A stretch of 64,000 nt of DNA from Flammeovirgaceae bacterium UBA4465 (GTDB lineage: Bacteria; Bacteroidota; Bacteroidia; Cytophagales; Cyclobacteriaceae). Location: the NCBI GenBank assembly GCA_905182375.1, contig CAJJBF010000005.1, positions 62,001 to 126,000 of the forward strand. The letters are read 5' to 3'. Within the stretch, counting starts at the first letter, position 1, and each line of letters begins with the position of its first letter. Shown here in pieces: positions 21,191 to 36,334 of the stretch. The notes under the pieces were generated by a model. That model was not told where the DNA came from. It saw only the letters and a list, made by a program, of their open reading frames with translations, and searched no databases. Both the position numbers and the translations under genes were made by a program.

Positions 21191-23842
21191 CTATTTATAA
21201 CCTAATACAGGTGCCAACCAACGTTCAGCTTCTTGCTTATCCATTGCCTTCCTATTTGCATAATCATCCAGTTGGTCCTCTCCGATCTTTCCCAAACCAA
21301 AATATCGGGCCTTGGGATGCGAGAAATAAAAGCCACTGACCGACGATGCTGGATACATTGCATAGGATTCTGTCAAGGTAATCCCTGTATTTTCTTCAAC
21401 TTGTAGTAATTCAAAAAGTGCTTTTTTCTCGGTATGATCAGGGCACGCAGGATAGCCTGGCGCCGGTCTGATTCCTTGATACTTTTCCTTGATCAATGCT
21501 GCGTTTTCAAAATCTTCTTCTGGTGCATAGCCCCAGTATTCTTTTCTTACCTTCTTGTGCATTAATTCTGCAAAGGCTTCAGCCAGTCGATCAGCAATTG
21601 CTTTTACCATGATCACATTGTAGTCATCATGATCTGCTTCAAAATCAGCTATTAATTTTTCAATGCCTATCCCTGCGGTCGTCGCAAATCCTCCAATATA
21701 ATCTCCCTTCTCGGAGGATTTAGGGGCAATATAATCTGCCAATGAAATATTAGGAATTTGAGATCCCTTCTTACCTTGCTGTCGAAGAAAATGAAGCCGA
21801 TTTACGGCGTTATTTTTGATCTCAACATCATCTTGAACTGCTTGTGCTTCAAAAAAACCAATGACTGCATTGGCCTGAAGAGAGCCCTTCGCTATGATTT
21901 GATCGAGCAATGCATTGGCCTCTTTAAAAAGTGTCTTTGCCTCACTTCCCACGATCGCATTTTCAAAAATTTGAGGATATTTTCCCTTCAACATCCATGT
22001 CGAGAAAAAAGGCGTCCAATCTATGTATTTTCTGATTTCCTCCAATGAATAGCTCTCAAATTTTTTAGTCCCCAAAAAAGAAGGTTTGAGTACTTCATGT
22101 TCTTGCCAATCAATCCCTACTCGATTGGATCTGGCAGCACCTATCGTGATTAATGTTTTTGCTTCTTGTCTACTTTGATGGTCCACGGCCAATCCCTCAT
22201 ATTCAGACCGAATCGACGCACTGAAATCGGCTGTGTCTTCACCCAAAAGTTTGGAGGCTACCGCTACAGATTTTGAAGCATCAAGTACGTGAATCGTAGG
22301 ACCACTGTATTTAGGTGCAATTTTTACTGAAGTGTGGATTCTTGAAGTCGTAGCCCCTCCGATGAGCAACGGAATTTTCATTCCCTTACGCTCCATTTCT
22401 TCTGCCACGGTCACCATCTCATCCAAAGAAGGAGTGATTAAACCACTCAATCCAATGATGTCTACTTGATGATTTACGGCTTCTTCCAATATTTTTTGAG
22501 CAGGAACCATCACACCCAGATCTATGATGTCATAATTATTGCATCCCAGCACCACGCCCACAATGTTTTTACCAATGTCATGTACATCTCCTTTGACCGT
22601 AGCCATTAATATTTTTCCCTTGCTGCTGTTGTTTTCTGTCTTATCAGCCTCTAAATAAGGTAATAAATAAGCGACCGCTTTCTTCATGACCCGCGCACTT
22701 TTCACCACTTGAGGTAAGAACATTTTACCACTGCCAAACAAATCCCCAACGGTATTCATCCCTGCCATCAAGGGCTGCTCTATGACGTGAAGGGGTTTTG
22801 GATATTTGAGTCGCGCCTCTTCGGTATCTTCCAATACATGATCAATGACGCCTTTGATCAAGGCATGTGCCAATCTTTCTTCTACCGTTCCTTTCCGCCA
22901 CTCATCATCAACGATTTTTACTTTACCGGTACCCGTGACGCTTTCGGCAAAATCCACCAATCGCTCGGTGGCATCCTCACGCCTGTTGAGTAGCACATCT
23001 TCTACATGAAGTAATAGTTCTTTGGGGATCAAGTCATAAATCTCCACCAAGCCCGCATTTAAAATCCCCATATCCATTCCATGGTTGATGGCATGAAATA
23101 AGAACGAGGAATGCATCGCTTCTCGAACGACATTATTGCCTCGAAATGAAAAAGAAACATTGCTTACCCCTCCACTTACTTTGGCTCCCGGCAGATGAGT
23201 TTTAATCCATTCTGTGGCCTTAAAAAAATCAATGGCGTAATTGTTGTGCTCCGGAATGCCGGTAGCCACAGGAAAAATGTTGGGATCGAATATAATATCC
23301 TGTGGTGGAAATTTGACCTGGTCTACCAAAACCCGATAAGCCCGCTCACAAATTTGAATCCGCCGATCGTACGTGTCGGCCTGACCGTCTTCGTCAAAAG
23401 CCATCACGACCGTCGCCGCACCGTATTGCTTGATCTTTCGGGCCTGATCAATAAAAATCTTTTCCCCTTCCTTAAGTGAAATAGAATTGACCACTCCCTT
23501 TCCTTGAACACATTTCAGACCTGCTTCGATGATTTCCCATTTGGACGAATCTATCATGATGGGTATTCTGGCGATCTCAGGTTCAGAAGCGACCAGATGT
23601 AAAAACTTAACCATCGCCGCTTTACCATCCAACATGCCGTCATCCATATTGATATCTAAAATTTGAGCGCCTCCACGTACCTGATCCAAGGCTACTTCTA
23701 GCGCCTCATCATATTTTCCCTCCTTAATCAAACGAGCAAAACGCAGACTTCCAGTCACATTGGTACGTTCACCTACATTGACAAAGTTCGTCTCAGCAGT
23801 AACAATTAACGGCTCAAGGCCCGATAACATCAAGGGTTTCAT
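21191..23842 (-). CDS. metH: Methionine synthase, pterin-, cobalamin- and AdoMet-binding part
   Basis: This 883-residue chain is the C-terminal two-thirds of cobalamin-dependent methionine synthase. Residues ~10-270 form the methyltetrahydrofolate-binding barrel ([12 protein letters not shown]), ~330-560 the cap and cobalamin domain with [12 protein letters not shown] (His421 is the expected cobalt ligand), and ~575-883 the reactivation domain with [12 protein letters not shown]. The homocysteine-binding part is encoded separately at 24295-25293, and a QueF-like gene lies between. Each piece has its own start and complete domains, so this is a true split, as known in other Bacteroidota, not a frameshift. 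Confidence 0.96.
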
Positions 23843-23867
23843 CTATTGGAAAAAGGATTTATGAAAA

Positions 23868-24305
23868 TTACATTACAACTTGCCATGAATCGTCAGATCC
23901 ACCATGCAACCAATCCTTAAACTTTTCTTCACCTCCACGAGTCGCCCAATCAGAATCTATGGTCAACCTCGAGCTGATGCCCCCTCTTGGATTGCAATTC
24001 ATCACAATGCGAAGCCGTTCAGGATCATAGACCTCCATCAGGTGGTCATAAAAAACATTAATTAACCGCTCATAAGAAACTACTATGTCACGTAAATGAA
24101 AGGCATATTGCTTCAAAGACTTTAACTCAATGACCTTACCTTTTGGATAAAAAGTAAGGTATACATTGGCGAAATCCGGCTGTTCTTGAACGCCCAAAAA
24201 GGTAAATTCAGGGATTTTTATTTTAATTTCGTAAGCCTCCTTTGTCGGATTAGGAATGGCTTTCAAAATACTTTTGTCGATGGCTTGATGTAATTTAATG
24301 GGCAT
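23868..24305 (-). CDS. QueF-family (T-fold) protein lacking the catalytic cysteine
   Basis: A 145-residue tunnelling-fold protein related to NADPH-dependent preQ1 synthase Que[15 protein letters not shown] aligns with the active-site stretch PEFTSLCPKTGQPDF of true QueF, but the nucleophilic Cys is gone and the loop is one residue shorter. The Asp of QPDF, the Glu of VIELKSLK and the PRGGIS segment are kept; the GDFHE histidine is not. So preQ1 synthesis is unlikely, while purine/pterin binding is plausible. The gene overlaps the metH N-terminal gene by 11 bases and ends 25 bases before the rest of metH, so it is expressed with methionine synthase. Its role is unknown. Confidence 0.8.
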
Positions 24306-25293
24306 ACGCTATTTGTCTAGGTTTATAATTTTTGGCCAATGTGGCTATTGCTTTAATGTGATCAGGGGTCGTTCCACAACAACCTCCAATGATATTGACC
24401 ATATGGTCTTCTAAATAGGCGGTGATTTGGTCTACCATTTCTTCAGGAGTTTCGTCGTATTGACCAAACTCATTGGGCAGACCTGCATTGGGATGAGCAC
24501 TGACCATAAAGTCAGATTTATCTGATAATATTTTTAAAAAAGGCCGCATCATTTCGGCACCAAAAGCACAATTTAACCCCACACTAAACAGCTCGCAATG
24601 TGAAATAGAGATCAAAAAAGCTTCGGTGGTTTGACCGGAGAGCGTCCGTCCTGAAGCATCGGTAATGGTTCCGGAAACCATGATAGGTGTCTGGATATTG
24701 CGCTCAGCTTTGACTTCTTCTGCCGCATAGAGGGCAGCCTTGGCATTTAAGGTGTCGATGATGGTTTCAAAAAGTAGTAGATCCACTCCCCCATCCAGTA
24801 GGGCTTCTACTTGATGTCGAAAGGCTAATTTCAATGCGTCGAAGGTCACCGCTCTAAACCCTGGATCATTGACATCAGGCGATAACGAGGCCGTCGTATT
24901 GGTAGGGCCAATAGAACCCGCAACAAACCTGGGTTTATTGCCGTCTAGTGCCGTATAATGATCCGCCGCAGCGCGGGCAATGCGGGCAGACTCATAATTG
25001 ATTTTATATACCCAATCTTGCAAACCATAATCCGCTTGTGCTATGGTCGTACTTGAGAAGGTATTGGTTTCTATGATATCAGCACCTGCCTCTAAATAGG
25101 CTTCATGAATTGATTTGATGACGTCAGGACGGGTCAGAGACAACAAGTCATTGTTCCCTTTGAGAGAAATAGTATGGCCCTTAAGTGCCTCGTTTCTGAA
25201 ATCTTCTTCCTGCAGGTCATGCCGCTGGATCATGGTACCCATGGCTCCATCGAGGATCAATATTCTTTCTTTGATAACTTCTTGAATCGTCAT
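24295..25293 (-). CDS. metH: Methionine synthase, homocysteine S-methyltransferase subunit
   Basis: A 332-residue zinc-dependent homocysteine-binding barrel corresponding to the N-terminal domain of Met[43 protein letters not shown], and the zinc ligands in [11 protein letters not shown] and [12 protein letters not shown] are present. It is the first gene of the operon and lies directly behind a SAM-I riboswitch, so it should be repressed when S-adenosylmethionine is plentiful. With the 883-residue chain it would rebuild a complete MetH. Confidence 0.95.
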
Positions 25294-25879: not shown

Positions 25880-26719
25880 TCACAACAAATCCTGTAGATT
25901 TTTAAAAGAAGTCGCAATGCTCTTTTCAGGATCTACCGATTGGTCTTGTTCAATGAAAAAATGTTGCATCCCAGCCACCTGAGACTGGTCAAATATTTCT
26001 TGGAAATCAATCACTCCATTGCCGACCTCAGTGAAATCTCCTGCCAGGTTCATATCTTTGACATGCCATAAAGAAAAACGATTTTTATATTTCTTAAAAA
26101 GATTTAATGCAGACGCTCCTGCTTTCACAGTCCAATAGAGGTCCAACTCAAAATCGACTACCTCAGCATCCGTTTCCTTCAACAACAGCTCCATAGGCAC
26201 AATACCACCAATACTCTCGAATTCAAAAGCATGATTGTGATAGGCCATCACTTTATCTAACTGACGCAGCTCTGCACCCCTCTCATTGAGCAGTTCAATC
26301 ACCTCATAGTATACCTCAAGATTCCTTTCGTTCTCCTCTAAATGAGGAAGCACTACATACTTTTGACCTGTATCTTCCAGCATTTGAAGCACTCGACCCC
26401 AATCAGACTTTAAATCTTTAAATGAAATATGACCGCTTACCATTTTCATCCCTAAATCGGTGACGATCCCATAAAACTCAGAAGGATCCAACCCATACAT
26501 TTTTCCCTCACTGTAGCCTGATGTTTCGATTTCCTTATAGCCTACCTTGGCGACATACTCAAGTGTTTTCCTTGGATTTACCGACATTAAATCTCGCAGT
26601 GTATACAATTGCAAACCCGTATTTGGCTTCACCTTAAATTCGCATCTGCTCAATAATGGCAAGGTACCCAGTCCCATTGCGGCCGTTATCGAAGTTTTTA
26701 AAAATGATCTTTTGTCCAT
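25880..26719 (-). CDS. Exported sugar phosphate isomerase/epimerase-like TIM barrel protein
   Basis: A 279-residue xylose-isomerase-like barrel with an N-terminal export signal: DKRSFLKTSITAAMGLGTLP, a KR-type Tat-like motif, then a LLSRC lipobox. The metal-site pattern is seen in MAYHNHAFEFE, VVDFELDLYWTVKAG, WHVKDMN and HFFIEQDQS. Start ATG 26719 overlaps the stop of the upstream 1207-residue gene by one base (TAATG). Together with its neighbours it probably isomerises a keto-sugar product in the periplasm, but no substrate can be assigned. Confidence 0.88.
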   Translation of the reverse strand: MDKRSFLKTSITAAMGLGTLPLLSRCEFKVKPNTGLQLYTLRDLMSVNPRKTLEYVAKVGYKEIETSGYSEGKMYGLDPSEFYGIVTDLGMKMVSGHISFKDLKSDWGRVLQMLEDTGQKYVVLPHLEENERNLEVYYEVIELLNERGAELRQLDKVMAYHNHAFEFESIGGIVPMELLLKETDAEVVDFELDLYWTVKAGASALNLFKKYKNRFSLWHVKDMNLAGDFTEVGNGVIDFQEIFDQSQVAGMQHFFIEQDQSVDPEKSIATSFKNLQDLL

Positions 26720-29700
26720 TAAAGTGATCTTATTTTGATATTTCGGAACCAAACTTCATCTCTATGGTCTTGGAGTACAATGTGCCCTGACCTTCCCGTT
26801 CCAAAGGCGGGCATTTCTTTAAATTTACTGTTTTTAATTCTTTCATCCCACATATCATCCCACATATCAAATTCCAAAAGCTTGTAACCATTGAGCCAAT
26901 GCTCCACATGACCCTCTTTAACAATAAGCCTGACTCTGTTCCAATCATTTGGCCCATTGGCCGTCACAAAAGCTGCCGGAATCATATCATACAAATCGCC
27001 CGCTCGATGAGCCAAATATTGACCATCGGTATGGCTGGAATTATCTAAAATTTGCATTTCAGGTCCCGTTAAATAAGCTTCTCCGTATTGATCATCCTCG
27101 ATTACATTGTAGATGATGCCGCTGTTACCACATGAGGCTACTTTCCATTCTACATAAAATTCATAATTCTGGTAGGTTTGATCGGTAACCACTACATTAT
27201 CACCTACAGGATAGGCACCATCGTCTCTATGTGCAGTACTGGATAAATGAAGCGCCCCGTTTTGGACGTCCCATTTTTCTCCCAAAACATCAGCATTATA
27301 ATTTCGAAGTCCCGTAGTGGTGTTCCCATTGAAAAGTAATTTCCATCCTGCAGACTGTTCGGCATCAGTTAATGCGTTGTGCATCACCTGATAGTCCGTA
27401 CTAAAACCTGGTTGATCCTTTGGAATTTGGTTGAGCGTGTACCAAGATTCAGTGGTCCAAAGTGAATGATCCAAATCACTGATAAAAGGACGATTGATTC
27501 TGAAATAAACAACCCGATTTTCCTTAATATCTGGCAATTCAACAAAGATTTTTTTCCGATCTTGTGATAGATGAAACGCTTTCGCTTCCAAGTTCTCTAA
27601 ATCCAACTTGGGTCCCCCATACACTTCGGTAGGCTCATAACGCCATTGCTGGATCAAAAAATCTTCAGCATTGACATTTTGCCCTTCCTTGATGGGTTCT
27701 GTAAACTCAATTTCAAAACCATCGCTTCGAGCACTTACTTTTAACATTTCAAATACAGAATTTCCATTGAAAGAGAGACTTTGCAGTCCATAACTGAGTT
27801 TGCCTATATGGCCCCAATTTCCAGACGAGCCTACGCCCCCTACTACTAGGTCGCCATTGGGTGCCCACAATATCCGGTTTACTCCTGCTTCCAAACCTTG
27901 CGTAAACCTAAATAAAGCACCCTGATAAGCGCCGTTGACCTTCTCTACATAAACGCGCTTAATCCCTCCATTGGTCACTTCACCATGAATCATTTGCCCT
28001 TGATAGGGGCCGACATCTAAGCCAATAGGGGTGCTAGGAGAGTTACCAATCTCATCTTGAGGCAGCCAAACCACAGGTAAGGTTTCTTTCAACTTGGCCG
28101 TGCCCTCAAAGTCAACGGATCTTGAGCCATAAAATGCGCCTGGCTGCACATGTACTATTTTACTAGCCGGTAACCAATCTCCTTGATTGTCTGCGATGAA
28201 TATTTCATTGTCTTTGCCAACTCCAATGCCATTGGGCGTTCTTAAACCAGAAGCGATCAACTCCACTTTTCCTGTTGATTTATCTATTTTTAAGACTTTA
28301 CCCCGATCGGGGATTTGGGGGTTGGCACTGGCACCTCCCGGCATGATGGCGGTTGCCAACGTGCCATAGAAAAAACCCTCCTGATAGACCAATCCAAAAG
28401 CAAATTCATGAAAATTGGCCGATACTTTCCAATCATTACTGACCGTTTGGTATTCATCAATTAATTCATCTCCATCATGATCTATCAACTTGGTCAATTC
28501 TTGTTTTTGCAACACATATATCTCCTCATCAATCACTTTCAATCCCAAGGGTTCAGCAAGCCCTGCGGCAATTCGCTTCACTTTGATTTGATCAGGCATA
28601 CCCGAATCCCAATTTTCTAATATGAATACTGAACCCAAAGAGTCCCAAGTACAAATGACCATACGCCCATCTGAAAGAAAATCAAGTCCCCCTACTTTAG
28701 GTGTAAAATCATTGGGTCTCGCTTGAGATAAATCAAAAGCAGGATGTACACCGGCTAAAGGAAGCGCATCGCCAGGAATCCCTTTTTTTAACTCACCTGG
28801 AGCAATGTAAGGCTTGGTTTCCAGCAACTCACTAGATTCAAAAGACACAAATTGGTCATCAAGTAGTACAAAGCTTTCCGCATTTCTATCAAACCACTGC
28901 AGTGAAACCAAAGCCCCTCCACCCCCTTGATTAAACAATAATCTAATGGGATGTTTTCCTGCTTTAAGAAACATTTCTCCATCCCTAATTTCTGTTCCAT
29001 GATCACCCCCGTTGTCTACAACCAACTGCTCATCTATGTAAAGTAAAGAGCCGTCGTCGCTGATCAGTCTGAAGTCATAGCTACCCTCTTTTTCAATGCT
29101 CAGTAGACCCTTATATTCTATAATAAAGTGTTCTTGAAAGTTTAAAAAATCCGTTTCGGATAACGTATGAATTTTACTGACCTTGCCCTGTAAAACGGGA
29201 GTCGACTTTTTAATGACTTCAAGTGGATAACTTTTCTCCAAATTTAAATATAAATGTGCTAAAAACCCTTGACCATCATCCCCTTCGTATTTTTCAGATA
29301 AATTCACTGGAATAGATTTTAAACCCAGCGTGTATTTATCAAAGGGTGTACTGAGTTTATCATCAAGACCCAAGATATAGCTTACCATAGTTTTTGCATC
29401 CTCAGGAATGATGTCAGGATGCGGAGTCATTAAAGCAACACCCCAAACCCCAGATCCACCTTTGATTATTTTTTGTGCCAATCCATCTATTGTGGCTTGA
29501 TCATCATTATATTTTTTTGCAATGGCCAAGTAAGACGGCCCCACGGTTCTTATTTTTTCATTGTGGCAGGCGGCGCAATCACTCTTTTCAATTAACAAGG
29601 CCCCACTTACGACCTCAAAAGTCTCATCCGTATCACTCGTTCCCGTAAGGTTTTCAACCTCAGCATGAAAATAGGTAGTCAAGTTGAGTACTTGTTTATT

Positions 29701-30342
29701 GAGACTTAAAATACCGTTTATCCTGCTGAATTGAAAGCCTTGTTGCTTGTAGGACTTCTGATCAATCACGGTAAAGGAACCATCCGTTTCATAATCATCT
29801 CCACTTGACAATAATCCCAATGAAGTTTTTAATTTCACCTCATAATCCGTCGTATTCTGAACGTTAAAAATTCTCTTAAGACCATGTCTTGTCCCACGGC
29901 TGACATACCTTGGTGATTCTGAAACCTTGATTTTATCGCCTTCTGGAGTAATGAATTCATAGTTAAAAAACACCTCCTCATTTTTGATCAAATGGCCCTT
30001 GTATTGGAAATCAAAATCAATCATTTCATCCGCTTGAGTCAGCATCCATTCGGATGCCTCCATATGATAATAGGTTGCTCCTAAACTTTGAGGTTGCGGT
30101 CCATGAACGGTGGTATAAACCGCACCATCAAACAAAACATCTCCACTCCATGCTCTGTATAAAAGCCCCGTTTGCGTATCATAGGCTACCCATAGCTTTT
30201 CGTCAAGCGCCGCAGTAACCATTCGAGGCATTTCATCCAATACAGATCTGAAAACCCAAACATCTCGTGGGTGACTTTCTTCACTTGGCATACTGCAGGA
30301 AATAAAAAATAAAATGGTGAGAACGGAAAATATATGCTTCAT
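26719..30342 (-). CDS. Multidomain lipoprotein: cytochrome c, PA14, sugar-dehydrogenase-like propeller, DUF1080
   Basis: A 1207-residue exported lipoprotein (signal MKHIFSVLTILFFISC). In order I see a beta-rich region (~30-240), a class I cytochrome c with CAACH at residues 256-260 and a likely axial Met near residue 305 (ALMTPHPDI), a PA14 carbohydrate-binding domain (~400-495), a six-bladed glucose/sorbosone-dehydrogenase-like propeller (~540-855; GLRTPNGIGV, IADNQGDW), an Ig-like linker, and a C-terminal DUF1080 domain (~997-1205; GWKLLFNGNTTTGLRNY). DUF1080 proteins are known as 3-keto-disaccharide hydrolases. I infer oxidation of a glycoside with electrons passed to haem, followed by cleavage, on one chain. 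Confidence 0.88.
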   Translation of the reverse strand: MKHIFSVLTILFFISCSMPSEESHPRDVWVFRSVLDEMPRMVTAALDEKLWVAYDTQTGLLYRAWSGDVLFDGAVYTTVHGPQPQSLGATYYHMEASEWMLTQADEMIDFDFQYKGHLIKNEEVFFNYEFITPEGDKIKVSESPRYVSRGTRHGLKRIFNVQNTTDYEVKLKTSLGLLSSGDDYETDGSFTVIDQKSYKQQGFQFSRINGILSLNKQVLNLTTYFHAEVENLTGTSDTDETFEVVSGALLIEKSDCAACHNEKIRTVGPSYLAIAKKYNDDQATIDGLAQKIIKGGSGVWGVALMTPHPDIIPEDAKTMVSYILGLDDKLSTPFDKYTLGLKSIPVNLSEKYEGDDGQGFLAHLYLNLEKSYPLEVIKKSTPVLQGKVSKIHTLSETDFLNFQEHFIIEYKGLLSIEKEGSYDFRLISDDGSLLYIDEQLVVDNGGDHGTEIRDGEMFLKAGKHPIRLLFNQGGGGALVSLQWFDRNAESFVLLDDQFVSFESSELLETKPYIAPGELKKGIPGDALPLAGVHPAFDLSQARPNDFTPKVGGLDFLSDGRMVICTWDSLGSVFILENWDSGMPDQIKVKRIAAGLAEPLGLKVIDEEIYVLQKQELTKLIDHDGDELIDEYQTVSNDWKVSANFHEFAFGLVYQEGFFYGTLATAIMPGGASANPQIPDRGKVLKIDKSTGKVELIASGLRTPNGIGVGKDNEIFIADNQGDWLPASKIVHVQPGAFYGSRSVDFEGTAKLKETLPVVWLPQDEIGNSPSTPIGLDVGPYQGQMIHGEVTNGGIKRVYVEKVNGAYQGALFRFTQGLEAGVNRILWAPNGDLVVGGVGSSGNWGHIGKLSYGLQSLSFNGNSVFEMLKVSARSDGFEIEFTEPIKEGQNVNAEDFLIQQWRYEPTEVYGGPKLDLENLEAKAFHLSQDRKKIFVELPDIKENRVVYFRINRPFISDLDHSLWTTESWYTLNQIPKDQPGFSTDYQVMHNALTDAEQSAGWKLLFNGNTTTGLRNYNADVLGEKWDVQNGALHLSSTAHRDDGAYPVGDNVVVTDQTYQNYEFYVEWKVASCGNSGIIYNVIEDDQYGEAYLTGPEMQILDNSSHTDGQYLAHRAGDLYDMIPAAFVTANGPNDWNRVRLIVKEGHVEHWLNGYKLLEFDMWDDMWDERIKNSKFKEMPAFGTGRSGHIVLQDHRDEVWFRNIKIRSL

Positions 30343-30413: not shown

Positions 30414-31472
30414 TCATTCATCTATTCCTAGAATCTTATTATTGATCACATCATTTGCTTCTCCTCCTGCGAAATCATCAAAAGCCTTCTCCGTGACACT
30501 GATAATGTGATCCGCAATGAAATCGGCACCTTCTTGCGCCCCTTGCTCTGGAGACTTGATACAACATTCCCATTCGAGTACCGCCCATCCCTCGAAACCG
30601 TATTGACTCAGCTTGCTGAAGATACCTGCAAAATCAACCGTACCATCACCTAAAGATCTAAATCTTCCTGGTCGATCCACCCAATCTTGATATCCTCCGT
30701 AAACTCCTGATTTACCCGTCGGATTAAACTCGGCATCCTTGACGTGAAACATTTTTATATATTCATGGTAATGATCAATATATTGGAGATAATCTAAGTT
30801 TTGCAAAACGAAATGGCTCGGATCGTACAATAAATTTACCGCAGTGTGATGATCCGTTGCCTCTAAAAATCTTTCAAAAGAAACGCCATCATGTAAATCT
30901 TCACCCGGATGAACTTCATAACACATATCGACACCTACCTCCTTACAGTGATCTAAAATGGGCAGCCATCTTTTGGCTAGCTCACTGAACCCTGCTTCAA
31001 CCAGACCCGTGGGCCGTTGAGGCCATGGATAAATAAAAGGCCATACCAAGGCACCGGAAAAGCTGGCCATCACATTAATTCCTAGATGGTTGCTGGCCGA
31101 GGCTGCTGACTTGACTTGGTCCACCGCCCAGGCAGTACGTGCTTTGGGATTTCCTTTTAAATGATCCGGAGCAAACGTATCAAACATGGTGTCGTAAGCA
31201 GGATGCACCGCCACCAACTGACCCTGAAGATGAGTTGATAACTCGGTAAGCTCTAAACCCGCCTCACTGACTATGCCTTTGATCTCATCACAATAGGTTT
31301 TACTTTCTCCTGCTAAGGTAATATCAATCAATCGCTGATCCCAAGCAGGAATTTGAACGCCTTTGTAGCCCAAAGAGGCTACCCATTCGCATATACTCTT
31401 AAGATTATTATAAGGTTCAACATCATCCAAAAACTGGGCTAAAAAAATAGCAGGACCTTTTATCGTTTTCAT
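30414..31472 (-). CDS. Cytosolic sugar phosphate isomerase/epimerase family protein
   Basis: A 352-residue xylose-isomerase-like TIM barrel without a signal peptide. YEVHPGEDLHDG, LLYDPSHFVLQ, MFHVKDAEFNP and AVLEWECC supply the usual metal-ligand positions. Start ATG 31472 (MKTIKGPAIFLAQFLDD) is preferred over an upstream in-frame ATG that would overlap the oxidoreductase gene. It sits 25 bases after that gene and 71 bases before the large DUF1080 lipoprotein gene, so all are likely one operon handling the same sugar. Confidence 0.88.
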   Translation of the reverse strand: MKTIKGPAIFLAQFLDDVEPYNNLKSICEWVASLGYKGVQIPAWDQRLIDITLAGESKTYCDEIKGIVSEAGLELTELSTHLQGQLVAVHPAYDTMFDTFAPDHLKGNPKARTAWAVDQVKSAASASNHLGINVMASFSGALVWPFIYPWPQRPTGLVEAGFSELAKRWLPILDHCKEVGVDMCYEVHPGEDLHDGVSFERFLEATDHHTAVNLLYDPSHFVLQNLDYLQYIDHYHEYIKMFHVKDAEFNPTGKSGVYGGYQDWVDRPGRFRSLGDGTVDFAGIFSKLSQYGFEGWAVLEWECCIKSPEQGAQEGADFIADHIISVTEKAFDDFAGGEANDVINNKILGIDE

Positions 31473-31497: not shown

Positions 31498-32670
31498 TTA
31501 AGATTTATCTTTGATTTTAGTCCAAATATTTCCATTCGCGGATGAAGCTACCACCGCAGCTACTAGGGCCATTCCCTTAAAACCATCATCAATATTGGGG
31601 TAAGTCCCTCTCAAATCAGGGGATGAATGGATTTTGAATTGTCGTACATGATCTGAGAAATTTCTGTAGATGTTGGCAAAAGCTTCGATGTATCCCTCAG
31701 GATGCCCCGAAGGCGTTCTCATATTCAAACGTGTTTCTTCGTGCAAATAAGAATGATCTACCCCAGTCCTATAGATTTGTGTGGGCGCTCCCTGTTTTTT
31801 TACCAGAAGTGTATTGTGATCAGTATTGCTCCATTCTAGTGCGCCCGCTTCCCCATAGATTCGAAATTTAAGATTGTTCTCATCGCCATGTGCAACTTGT
31901 GAGGCAGAAATCACACCTTGAGCCTGTTGCTCCATTCTGAAAAACACGTCGGCGTCATCATCCAAGGTTCTTCCAGGCACAAAAGCATTGAGCTCTGCCA
32001 ATACTTCGGTTATTTTTAACCCAGAAATATATTCAGCTAAATGCCCGCAATGGGTCCCTATATCTCCAAAACAATTGCTTATACCTGCTTTTTGGGGATC
32101 TGAACGCCATGCGGCTTGCTTTTGACCTGTGTCTTCCAACTTATCCGATAACCATCCTTGCGGGTATTCTACCATTATCTTTCGAACCTTACCGATTTCG
32201 TGATTCTTTACCATAGCTTTTGCTTGAATCAACATCGGGTAGTAGGCATACGTATAAGTCAGTCCAAAGGGCAAGCCAGTCGTTTTGACTTTGGCTCTAA
32301 GTTGCTTTGCTTCATCCATCGTAAAGCACAATGGCTTGTCTATGATGACAGGAAAACCATGATCTAAAGCGGACATCGCCGGAGCAAAATGCATGTTGTT
32401 TTGCGTAACAATGGAAACAAAATCCATTCGCTCCTCCTCAGATCGACGTGCTTCGGACGCCATCATTTCATCAAATGTTCTGTACAATCTGTCGTCATTG
32501 AGATAAATTTCCTTGCCAAAGGCGATAGATTTATCAGCATCTGAACTAAAAACGCCACAAACCAGTTCAATTTGACCATCTAGTTGCGATGCCATTCGAT
32601 GGATTCCTCCGATAAAAGCACCACTTCCACCGCCTACCATTCCCATTTTGAGCTTTCTATCTGTTTTCAT
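31498..32670 (-). CDS. Gfo/Idh/MocA family oxidoreductase
   Basis: A 390-residue NAD(P)-dependent sugar oxidoreductase. The Rossmann start is KMGMVGGGSGAFIGGIHRMA; IIDKPLCFTMDEA is the E/DKP motif with the catalytic-region lysine, and GDIGTHCGHLAEY the C-terminal substrate motif. No signal peptide, so cytosolic. It is a divergent paralogue of the next gene upstream (32682-33818), from which it is separated by 11 bases. Enzymes of this family interconvert hydroxyl and keto groups on sugars, including C3 oxidation of glycosides, which fits the DUF1080 neighbour. Confidence 0.92.
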   Translation of the reverse strand: MKTDRKLKMGMVGGGSGAFIGGIHRMASQLDGQIELVCGVFSSDADKSIAFGKEIYLNDDRLYRTFDEMMASEARRSEEERMDFVSIVTQNNMHFAPAMSALDHGFPVIIDKPLCFTMDEAKQLRAKVKTTGLPFGLTYTYAYYPMLIQAKAMVKNHEIGKVRKIMVEYPQGWLSDKLEDTGQKQAAWRSDPQKAGISNCFGDIGTHCGHLAEYISGLKITEVLAELNAFVPGRTLDDDADVFFRMEQQAQGVISASQVAHGDENNLKFRIYGEAGALEWSNTDHNTLLVKKQGAPTQIYRTGVDHSYLHEETRLNMRTPSGHPEGYIEAFANIYRNFSDHVRQFKIHSSPDLRGTYPNIDDGFKGMALVAAVVASSANGNIWTKIKDKS

Positions 32671-32681
32671 GAATGATTATT

Positions 32682-33818
32682 TTAGCTGACCTTTACCCAT
32701 ACTTGTCCTTGGCTACTTGATGACAATACCGCTTCGATAAACAACATTCCCCTTACCCCATCATGGACCGTAGGGAAAGCACCCGCTCTATCGGGTCTGC
32801 CGTAAATGGCCGCAGCTACGCCGTTATAAATATTGCCCATCGCATCAAATAAGCCTTCAGGATGACCTGGAGCAATTTTAGTACTCTCCAAGGCAAACTC
32901 ACTATTGTATGGATTGCCCGGTTTATAAATTTGAGTGGGAGCACCTTCAATCAAATGCTTCAAATACATGGGATGTTCTTGCTCCCATTTTAGCCCGCCT
33001 TGATCTCCATAAACCGCTATGGAAAGATTGTTTTCTTCTCCAGTGGCAATTTGACTGGCTGTGATGACGCCTCGTGACCCATTATTCATTCTTAGGAGCG
33101 TGGTACCATCTACATCTAATTCATTTTCGGGATAAAGGGTATCCAAATCAGCCAATACTTTATCGATCTCTAATCCCGTTGTATACTCAATCAAATTAAA
33201 GGCATGAACCCCAATATCGCCCATACAACAGCTCAAGCCAGACATCTTTGGATTTAATCGCCAGACCTTTTTTCTTTCCTCTTCTTGGTGAATGGAAGGG
33301 TTGATCCAACCTTGATAATATTGTGCATCTACTTTTTGAATCCTTCCAATCTTGCCTTGAGCAATCATTGACTTCATTTGACGTATCATAGGATAACCCG
33401 TATACGTATGGGTCAGTCCAAAAACTACCCCTTTTTCTTGCACCAATTTTTCTAATGACCGTGCTTCATCTGCCGTGACCGTAATGGGCTTTTCGCAGAT
33501 CACATTAAAACCTGCACTCACCAGCTTCTTTGCCATCTCAAAATGCAGGAAATTAGGAGTTAAAATCGACACTACTTGAATGCGCTCCTCTTCGGTAAGG
33601 GCCAACTCTTTCTCAATGAATATGTCTAATGACGGATAGGATCTCGCGGCGTCCAACTCTAGTTGTGCTGCAAATTGATTTCCTTTATCAAAATCAATAT
33701 CAAATACACCTCCGGTCAAAACATAATTCTCACCCATGTAAGCCGCCACCCGGTGTACAATCCCAATAAATGAACTCAAGCCTCCTCCTATTAGGCCCAA
33801 TTTTATCTTATTACTCAT
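32682..33818 (-). CDS. Gfo/Idh/MocA family oxidoreductase (paralogue)
   Basis: A 378-residue paralogue of the adjacent oxidoreductase: KLGLIGGGLSSFIGIVHRVA forms the nucleotide-binding start, ICEKPITVTADEA the EKP motif and GDIGVHAFNLIEY the substrate motif. It is the first gene of the minus-strand run 25471-33818. Its differences from the neighbouring copy are spread over the whole chain, so the pair is an old duplication, probably with distinct substrates or opposite directions in one pathway. Confidence 0.92.
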   Translation of the reverse strand: MSNKIKLGLIGGGLSSFIGIVHRVAAYMGENYVLTGGVFDIDFDKGNQFAAQLELDAARSYPSLDIFIEKELALTEEERIQVVSILTPNFLHFEMAKKLVSAGFNVICEKPITVTADEARSLEKLVQEKGVVFGLTHTYTGYPMIRQMKSMIAQGKIGRIQKVDAQYYQGWINPSIHQEEERKKVWRLNPKMSGLSCCMGDIGVHAFNLIEYTTGLEIDKVLADLDTLYPENELDVDGTTLLRMNNGSRGVITASQIATGEENNLSIAVYGDQGGLKWEQEHPMYLKHLIEGAPTQIYKPGNPYNSEFALESTKIAPGHPEGLFDAMGNIYNGVAAAIYGRPDRAGAFPTVHDGVRGMLFIEAVLSSSSQGQVWVKVS

Positions 33819-35737: not shown

Positions 35738-36334
35738 TTGAAATTAAAATATGCATTCTTTATTGTGAGCACTCACCTTTTGAGTTTAATTGGCTGCCAA
35801 AAAAATGAAACGGATGACATCGAGACAGTAGCGTCAGCTACCTTGCAAATAGTGACGCTCAATGAAGACTTATCTTACGAAGTCAATGGGACAGAAATAG
35901 GCATCATCCGTTTTACTAAAAAGGAAGATATCGTCTCCATAGACCTAGAGGTTACTCATTTTCCCGAAGGTCAATTGTCTTATTATCATGCCATACATAT
36001 ACACAACGGAACTTGTGAATCACCCTTATCACATTGGAATCTAGGTAAAGATTTAGATTACAACTTTTGTAACGTGCTCAGCATGGACGAAGTATGGGCC
36101 AAACCCAAGGCGGGTGACCTAGGTAATATTTTTATAAATGATGCAGGAGTGGGAGATTTTAGTTTACAGACAGATTTGTATACCATAGGATCAAATGACG
36201 CTTCAGACATCGTTGAAAAGATTATTTATATTCATGAAGTCGCCGAAAATTTTAAACAAGAATGTTTTGAAGGTCACAACCATGAACACAATAACAAAAA
36301 AATAGCTTGTGGTACGATTGAACTCATAAACTAA
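35738..36334 (+). CDS. Cu/Zn superoxide dismutase-like lipoprotein with altered Zn site
   Basis: A 198-residue lipoprotein (TTG start; signal ends LLSLIGC) with the SodC beta-barrel pattern: HAIHIHNGTC gives two copper-type histidines (87, 89) and the disulfide Cys93, SHWN the bridging-type His99, AGDLGN the usual Asp (127), YIHE a further copper-type His166 and IACGTI the second Cys. The zinc ligands equivalent to His71 and His80 are missing; Lys124 stands in the latter position. This looks like a copper-only SOD or a derived copper-binding protein. It lies one base before the M19 dipeptidase gene. Confidence 0.7.
   Translation: MKLKYAFFIVSTHLLSLIGCQKNETDDIETVASATLQIVTLNEDLSYEVNGTEIGIIRFTKKEDIVSIDLEVTHFPEGQLSYYHAIHIHNGTCESPLSHWNLGKDLDYNFCNVLSMDEVWAKPKAGDLGNIFINDAGVGDFSLQTDLYTIGSNDASDIVEKIIYIHEVAENFKQECFEGHNHEHNNKKIACGTIELIN

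Follow-up and report, generated by a model that had tools for sequence, protein, structure and literature searches.

The stretch of DNA analysed here (the window) comprises 64,000 nucleotides from Flammeovirgaceae bacterium UBA4465, a member of the Cyclobacteriaceae, and the element of interest is a gene for a fusion protein, FUS, in which a haem c domain, a six-bladed propeller and a DUF1080 domain lie on one exported chain. Its open reading frame, with an ATG start and a TAA stop, runs on the minus strand; the plus strand across 26719-30342 is full of stops. An earlier note on this DNA had proposed a single lipoprotein chain of 1207 residues at these positions, carrying a CAACH cytochrome, a PA14 domain and a DUF1080 domain, and in this it was right: the reading frame is single, a lipobox Cys is present at residue 16, and all three domains score above their Pfam cut-offs. 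The note passed over the strand, an N-terminal beta-supersandwich, a conserved region following the propeller and the surrounding operon. The features of FUS are listed below, with residues numbered along its reading frame.

26719..30342, minus strand: FUS, fusion protein, exported lipoprotein of 1207 residues (open reading frame, Pfam, predicted fold)
30295..30342, minus strand: signal peptide with lipobox, the Cys being residue 16 (sequence)
29608..30261, minus strand: N-terminal beta-supersandwich, residues 28-245 (predicted fold, no Pfam match)
29365..29607, minus strand: class I c-type cytochrome domain, residues 246-326 (Pfam; cytochrome c-551/552 relatives in the PDB)
29563..29577, minus strand: CAACH haem attachment motif, residues 256-260 (sequence)
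29428-29430, minus strand: axial Met305 (sequence and alignment)
28879..29136, minus strand: PA14, residues 403-488 (Pfam; carbohydrate-binding-type relatives in the PDB)
27763..28746, minus strand: six-bladed propeller, residues 533-860 (fold nearest to PQQ sugar dehydrogenases)
27418..27762, minus strand: conserved region after the propeller, residues 861-975 (kept in all architectures)
26728..27348, minus strand: DUF1080 / 3-keto-disaccharide hydrolase domain, residues 999-1205 (Pfam, fold)

Domains and predicted folds of FUS

A scan of genome contigs returned 80 loci, the closest at 95-96% identity and the most distant at about 42%. Nine of the 80 were excluded as partial, and the window protein together with the 71 full-length relatives makes up a 72-member alignment. 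The haem domain matches Cytochrom_C (PF00034) over residues 246-326 at 24.5 bits (cut-off 21.3), and C256, C259 and H260, as well as the axial Met305, are invariant in all 72 members. Two Cytochrom_C_asm matches in the window genome indicate a host able to attach haem. PA14 scores 51.3 bits (cut-off 24), and 3keto-disac_hyd (PF06439) scores 140.3 bits (cut-off 26.8) over profile positions 1-187, that is, the whole domain. Of the 57 members with DUF1080, 48 retain the lipobox Cys16, as do 4 of the 15 without it.

An AlphaFold model of FUS, which begins at residue 16 and for which 65 of the 72 sequences were aligned, has a mean predicted local distance difference test score (pLDDT) of 85.8 and a predicted template modelling score (pTM) of 0.77. 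When the model was searched against solved structures, two regions dominated, namely DUF1080 and the propeller. The closest match to DUF1080 is 3hbk (Z 30.1, root mean square deviation (rmsd) 1.8, 217 residues aligned), followed by 8rr2 and 9fbe (Z 27.8 and 27.7, rmsd 2.1, 210 aligned), both titled 3-keto-glycoside eliminase/hydratase in the PDB. Polar residues of the cleft type (E1095, Q1097, D1100, H1104, N1135 and Q1191-D1192-H1193) are invariant in 57 of 57 DUF1080-bearing members. As modelled, the domain thus matches solved 3-keto-glycoside eliminase/hydratases in fold, and a putative activity of that kind may be assigned to it. The earlier suggestion that DUF1080 cleaves an oxidised bond agrees with these matches, although beta-elimination plus hydration is more likely than the hydrolysis then supposed.

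The modelled propeller is nearest in fold to sugar dehydrogenases that use pyrroloquinoline quinone (PQQ): 2ism (Z 28.9, rmsd 2.9, 288 aligned), 3a9g (Z 28.6, rmsd 3.0, 294 aligned), PQQ-bound 3das (Z 27.8, rmsd 3.1, 289 aligned) and 2g8s (Z 27.2), with the AA12 structure 6h7t at 24.5 and soluble glucose dehydrogenase (s-GDH, 1c9u) at 23.5. Propellers of the lactonase, luciferin-regenerating and regucalcin/SMP-30 types fall below the first four, at Z 22-23. The N-terminal domain (residues 28-245), for which a Pfam search returned no match, was also modelled separately (pLDDT 90.1, pTM 0.86) as a beta-supersandwich; its nearest folds are the YidC periplasmic domain, the LacZ C-terminal domain and GalM mutarotase, at middling Z values of 8-10.

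The operon and a candidate pathway

FUS lies in an operon whose genes all run in one direction, with GFO2, GFO1 and TIM2 upstream and TIM1 downstream; the ATG of TIM1 overlaps the TAA stop of FUS (TAATG).

25880..26719, minus strand: TIM1, exported xylose-isomerase-like TIM barrel, eliminase-like (fold-family matches)
30414..31472, minus strand: TIM2, 2-hydroxy-3-keto-glucal hydratase orthologue (match to 8ro4)
31498..32670, minus strand: GFO1, Gfo/Idh/MocA oxidoreductase, candidate 3-keto-sugar reductase or dehydrogenase (Pfam)
32682..33818, minus strand: GFO2, Gfo/Idh/MocA oxidoreductase, candidate 3-keto-sugar reductase or dehydrogenase (Pfam)

TIM2 is identical to 8ro4, a solved 2-hydroxy-3-keto-glucal hydratase, in 239 of 350 aligned columns (68%, E 6.4e-172). 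At the family level only, TIM1 matches 8tcd, 8tcs and 8tct (E 1.5e-34 to 1.3e-30, with 8tcd at 1.5e-34) and AtOGE, 8bvk (6.6e-16); we take 8tcd and its kin to be 3-keto-glycoside lyases. GFO1 and GFO2 match PF01408 and PF22725, again at the family level, with 3v5n as the nearest solved structure and sub-threshold similarity to levoglucosan and glycoside 3-dehydrogenases. By eye, TIM1 carries an export signal, and no signal peptide is visible on TIM2, GFO1 or GFO2. An exported eliminase beside a hydratase and Gfo enzymes of this kind suggests two compartments.

An operon of Agrobacterium tumefaciens is described as encoding a dehydrogenase (GlycDH), an O-glycoside eliminase, whose structure is 8bvk, a hydratase (HYD) and a Gfo oxidoreductase (PMC10628242), and levoglucosan breakdown is reported to use the same four-step chemistry, as in lgdA-B1-B2-C of Bacillus smithii (PMC7676230). 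The window operon follows this logic of oxidation, elimination, hydration and reduction, and like the GlycDH-OGE-HYD-Gfo type it brings together a hydratase, an eliminase-like TIM barrel and Gfo oxidoreductases. Unlike the A. tumefaciens operon as described, it encodes no flavin GlycDH: there is no GMC gene within it, and the three GMC matches of the genome lie on other contigs. Instead, the operon holds counterparts of the elimination, hydration and reduction steps, with FUS standing where the flavin GlycDH would be, and it is chiefly for this reason that we propose an oxidising role for FUS. The presence of a separate TIM-barrel eliminase, a hydratase and two Gfo/Idh enzymes also means that FUS is not self-contained, contrary to the earlier proposal of a self-contained glycosidase.

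The domains, the invariant haem ligands, the folds and the operon neighbours, including the 68%-identical hydratase, are observed; for the cofactor, the position oxidised, the electron route, the order of steps and the substrate, we infer the following. A glycoside would be bound by PA14 and the propeller, perhaps with the N-terminal domain. The propeller, holding a quinone-type cofactor (PQQ, probably scavenged), would oxidise a sugar hydroxyl, most likely at C3, to the ketone; the haem c domain would take up the electrons and hand them on to the respiratory chain. DUF1080 would then break the activated glycosidic bond by beta-elimination, hydrate the 2-hydroxy-3-keto-glucal, or do both, with the exported TIM1 eliminase assisting cleavage outside. 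Keto-glucal or keto-sugar entering the cell would be hydrated by TIM2 and reduced to normal sugar by GFO1 and GFO2. FUS would thus serve a pathway of oxidation, elimination, hydration and reduction as its 'respiratory glycosidase', an exported module anchored by lipid; for this reading our belief and our doubt are evenly balanced.

Relatives, cofactor and rival explanations

The 80 loci come mostly from Bacteroidota, with some from Gammaproteobacteria (Gilvimarinus, Paraglaciecola, Aliiglaciecola and Cellvibrionaceae); within the family of the window genome, matches at E <= 1e-100 were obtained in 10 of 60 genomes. Fulvivirga marina (L006), Lewinella cohaerens (L024) and Gilvimarinus agarilyticus (L026) are culturable relatives with the gene. 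Since 63 of the 80 carry DUF1080 in the same open reading frame, a chance fusion or an assembly artefact was rejected. In the 72-member alignment, median identity to the window protein is 68% for the propeller, 51% for the haem domain, 48% for DUF1080, 38% for PA14 and 35% for the N-terminal domain. The propeller is thus the best conserved domain of FUS, with 108 near-invariant columns.

In favour of the pathway, the cluster recurs in relatives, with a hydratase-like gene at 10 of the 80 loci, always on the same strand. Certain neighbourhoods also hold further proteins of a similar make. In two relatives of the same family (L109 and L110) the order is one or two Gfo genes, the hydratase, the fusion, a GSDH-PKD-cytochrome-CBM6 protein, TIM1 and a large exported protein. 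The GSDH-containing protein of L110 also has ThuA, and the large exported protein of L109 is a TonB plug domain protein. At L108 the fusion adjoins a similar ThuA/GSDH/cytochrome protein, a pairing repeated at L009 and L078. Like DUF1080, ThuA presumably belongs to keto-sugar metabolism. These partners carry the haem module found in FUS (the copy in the window genome gives 1.3e-33 in hmmsearch), and hence one haem module has been combined with two kinds of sugar-dehydrogenase propeller, and with DUF1080 or ThuA. A relative of the ThuA-GSDH-cytochrome type in the window genome (contig C8, L100:2873-6246) is split over four open reading frames, through pseudogene formation or assembly errors.

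A number of observations weigh against the pathway proposed above, and the first group concerns architecture and neighbourhood. The N-terminal domain, haem domain, propeller and post-propeller region form a shared chassis that occurs in three architectures. The window protein has both PA14 and DUF1080; 15 complete members, in Cytophagales such as Dyadobacter, have PA14 but lack DUF1080; and a form of about 800 residues (five sequences retrieved, L103-L107) has neither. The chassis, as we see it, is the functional core, to which DUF1080 is attached as a tool. Genes for a Gfo or hydratase protein occur near only 13 of the 63 DUF1080-bearing loci (8 of the 31 with 5 kb on both sides), so an operon conserved across the whole family was rejected. 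An MFS-type permease gene was found near 26 of the 63.

Of the 17 loci without DUF1080 in the reading frame, two run into a contig end (L005 and L057). A Rosetta-stone arrangement, in which DUF1080 persists as a neighbouring gene, is unsupported, being seen at a single one of the 17 (L076). SusC is present at 11 of these loci and SusD at 10. In Dyadobacter-type genomes (L065, L066, L068-L070, L072, L073, L075, L079 and L080) a SusC/SusD pair precedes the DUF1080-less form, which there is part of a polysaccharide utilisation locus. Beside the form of about 800 residues, Pfam identifies sulfatase genes at two loci, L103 and L107, pointing tentatively to sulfated glycans.

The second group concerns the position oxidised. 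To our knowledge, the characterised GSDH-fold enzymes oxidise C1 of aldoses. The FUS propeller could accordingly be an aldose C1 dehydrogenase, converting the reducing end or a freed monosaccharide to the lactone with electrons passing to the haem, while one of the Gfo/Idh enzymes carries out C3 oxidation for DUF1080; the fusion would then tie bond cleavage to the energy obtained from the released sugar. We regard this as unlikely, though it has several points in its favour: the best fold matches (2ism, 3a9g, 3das and 2g8s) are aldose sugar dehydrogenases that we take to act on C1, the core chassis occurs without DUF1080, and the two Gfo/Idh proteins resemble the 3-dehydrogenases already mentioned, at sub-threshold scores. 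LgdA and LgdC are presumably members of the Gfo/Idh family. Two such enzymes might do both oxidation and reduction alone, as LgdA and LgdC are reported to do (PMC7676230), and in Bacteroides thetaiotaomicron the glycoside 3-dehydrogenase BT2158 is described as supplying 3-oxidation (PMC11300592), a task that Gfo/Idh could likewise perform here. A side-by-side arrangement resembling BT2157-BT2158 occurs elsewhere in the window genome (contig C1, L091:3947-6020), where a stand-alone exported DUF1080 protein comes before a Gfo/Idh-like protein bearing a Tat-like signal. Against C1 oxidation, the Gfo/Idh proteins and the hydratase of the operon have no visible signal peptide, which would place Gfo/Idh oxidation of C3 across the membrane from DUF1080, and a dehydrogenase and an eliminase on one chain would be left unexplained. 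Direct cleavage of xanthan and β-glucans by a DUF1080 protein has also been reported (PMC10881899; PMC5673643), and hence the domain may not in every case depend on a keto-sugar.

The proposal that the propeller oxidises C3 is weakest in its cofactor. The earlier note had called the propeller glucose/sorbosone-dehydrogenase-like, which the predicted fold supports and Pfam does not: PF07995 (GSDH) gives no match to FUS up to E 1, and only sub-threshold matches, to DUF7133, SGL, Str_synth and NCBIfam Piru_Ver_Nterm, were obtained. A reading of the propeller as the Pfam GSDH domain is not supported by sequence, and for that reason FUS is not counted as a proven GSDH member. Residue mapping onto s-GDH used the second hhalign solution (probability 8%), which is collinear with the structural match; the first (11%) is out of register with the fold and was dropped. 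His645, Arg701 and Gln720-Gly721 then align with His144, Arg228 and Gln246-Gly247 of s-GDH and are invariant in 72 of 72 members, whereas Gln76, Asp143 and Asn229 are replaced by Leu595, Phe644 and Thr702. We take these s-GDH residues to comprise the catalytic His and the PQQ and Ca2+ contacts. As a check for dehydrogenase residues the outcome is therefore divided, and given the 8% probability the mapping is suggestive only.

PQQ synthesis was sought in 20 host genomes. PqqC was found in none (0/20); as the built-in controls of this search gave no match, a separate positive control was run on gammaproteobacteria, where PqqC was found in 23 of 143, 20 of them above the cut-off. No PqqB scored above the cut-off in the 20 hosts, although weak matches below it occurred in 14 of them; of 14 named control genomes, 6 likewise gave matches, all below the cut-off. 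The absence of PqqC implies that PQQ is scavenged or that another cofactor is used; if FUS does use PQQ, the gene content of its hosts suggests that it is probably scavenged. The missing synthesis genes, the weak sequence relation to GSDH and the Z values of 21-23 reached by six-bladed propellers of many functions could also be accommodated if the haem-propeller were a sensor, a scaffold or an oxidoreductase for something else (for example, with a propeller binding Ca2+ only), leaving DUF1080 as the sole catalytic domain. This is highly doubtful: the Z values of the aldose-type PQQ sugar dehydrogenases exceed those of the other propellers by 4-6 units, and other proteins combine this haem module with clear GSDH domains.

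Finally, the window genome has its own pair of GMC and Gluconate_2-dh3 genes, LacABC/GlycDH-like, beside sulfatase-like genes on contig C3 (L098:7991-10285), with no CXXCH protein among the open reading frames of the fetched 17 kb. Gluconate_2-dh3 was found in 18 of the 20 host genomes, so that C3 oxidation could come from a flavoprotein. A flavin glycoside 3-dehydrogenase would then make the 3-keto substrate, the FUS haem would be its acceptor, and the propeller would only bind substrate or cofactor; LacABC and DUF1080 are already known to go together (PMC9007349). We consider this quite improbable, as the pair lies on another contig, outside the operon, Gluconate_2-dh3 was not found in 2 of the 20 hosts, and the highest conservation in FUS would be odd for a mere scaffold. 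Oxidation of a glycoside by the propeller with electrons leaving through the haem, as the earlier note had it, is thus favoured by the fold, the invariant haem motif and the operon, and is opposed by the lack of PqqC in the 20 hosts and by the separate flavin dehydrogenase.

Two further features of the window lie outside the operon. A methionine synthase at 21191-25293 consists, by eye, of two open reading frames (a homocysteine part of 332 residues and a remainder of 883) with a 145-residue reading frame between them, and 35738-36334 encodes an exported protein with a Cu/Zn superoxide dismutase domain above threshold.

Known systems and significance

Each domain of FUS, and the four-step chemistry, is already known. 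The DUF1080 enzymes BT2157 (3osd), 8tda, 8rr2/9fbe and 8v31 share with FUS the full-length domain and the conserved cleft-type residues, but in these DUF1080 stands alone, whereas in FUS it is C-terminal to a redox chain. The Bacteroidota (ThuA-)GSDH-PKD-CytC-CBM6 proteins, found beside the fusion at L009, L078, L108, L109 and L110, likewise combine this haem c module with a sugar-dehydrogenase propeller and a carbohydrate-binding module; they differ in a sequence-recognisable GSDH, in having ThuA, where present, in place of DUF1080, and in domain order. Reportedly, a 2024 Nature paper deals with a broad-specificity gut pathway.

The AA12 quinohaemoprotein pyranose dehydrogenase of Coprinopsis cinerea is likewise a single secreted chain, made up of a cytochrome, a six-bladed PQQ propeller and a carbohydrate-binding module, but its haem is b rather than c and it has no bond-cleaving domain (PMC4332668; PMC4133262). 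Several bacterial PQQ contacts are missing from this enzyme, yet PQQ is required, in a eukaryote (PMC4133262; PMC4332668); the PQQ of the fungal enzyme is presumably scavenged, as it would be in FUS. In Caulobacter crescentus, the membrane-bound sugar 3-dehydrogenase LacABC works in the periplasm together with a DUF1080 protein that is exported, although as a separate, unfused three-component enzyme (PMC9007349). The planctomycete-type cytochromes (PSCyt) of Planctomycetes-Verrucomicrobia-Chlamydiae (PVC) bacteria are joined to carbohydrate-binding modules, including PA14, and have been proposed to act on carbohydrates; they belong to other domain families, and the portion of the source consulted names neither DUF1080 nor a sugar dehydrogenase (PMC5615132). 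Within the accessible parts of the open-licence PMC literature, no description was found of a fusion of haem c, a sugar-dehydrogenase-type propeller and DUF1080 in a hydratase/eliminase/Gfo operon, and no paper on DUF1080 with PA14 was found in that literature. FUS is therefore a new domain combination within a recently recognised kind of pathway.

More tentatively, with doubt somewhat outweighing belief, we propose that one exported chain combines C3 oxidation by the propeller, its own haem c and elimination by its own DUF1080, and that this arrangement, built on an interchangeable chassis, is widespread in Bacteroidota and some Gammaproteobacteria whose genomes indicate that they cannot make PQQ. 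Cleavage of glycosidic bonds is usually ascribed to hydrolases or lyases. If the proposal is true, two electrons would be drawn off through the haem and the weakened bond then eliminated, tying polysaccharide breakdown directly to respiration; linkages beyond the reach of ordinary glycosidases could be cut, and many carbohydrate-degrading loci of Bacteroidota would have been overlooked by enzyme catalogues. It would also offer a route to the function of many haem-propeller proteins in Bacteroidota, and perhaps in PVC bacteria, since in the window operon the neighbouring genes point to the chemistry.

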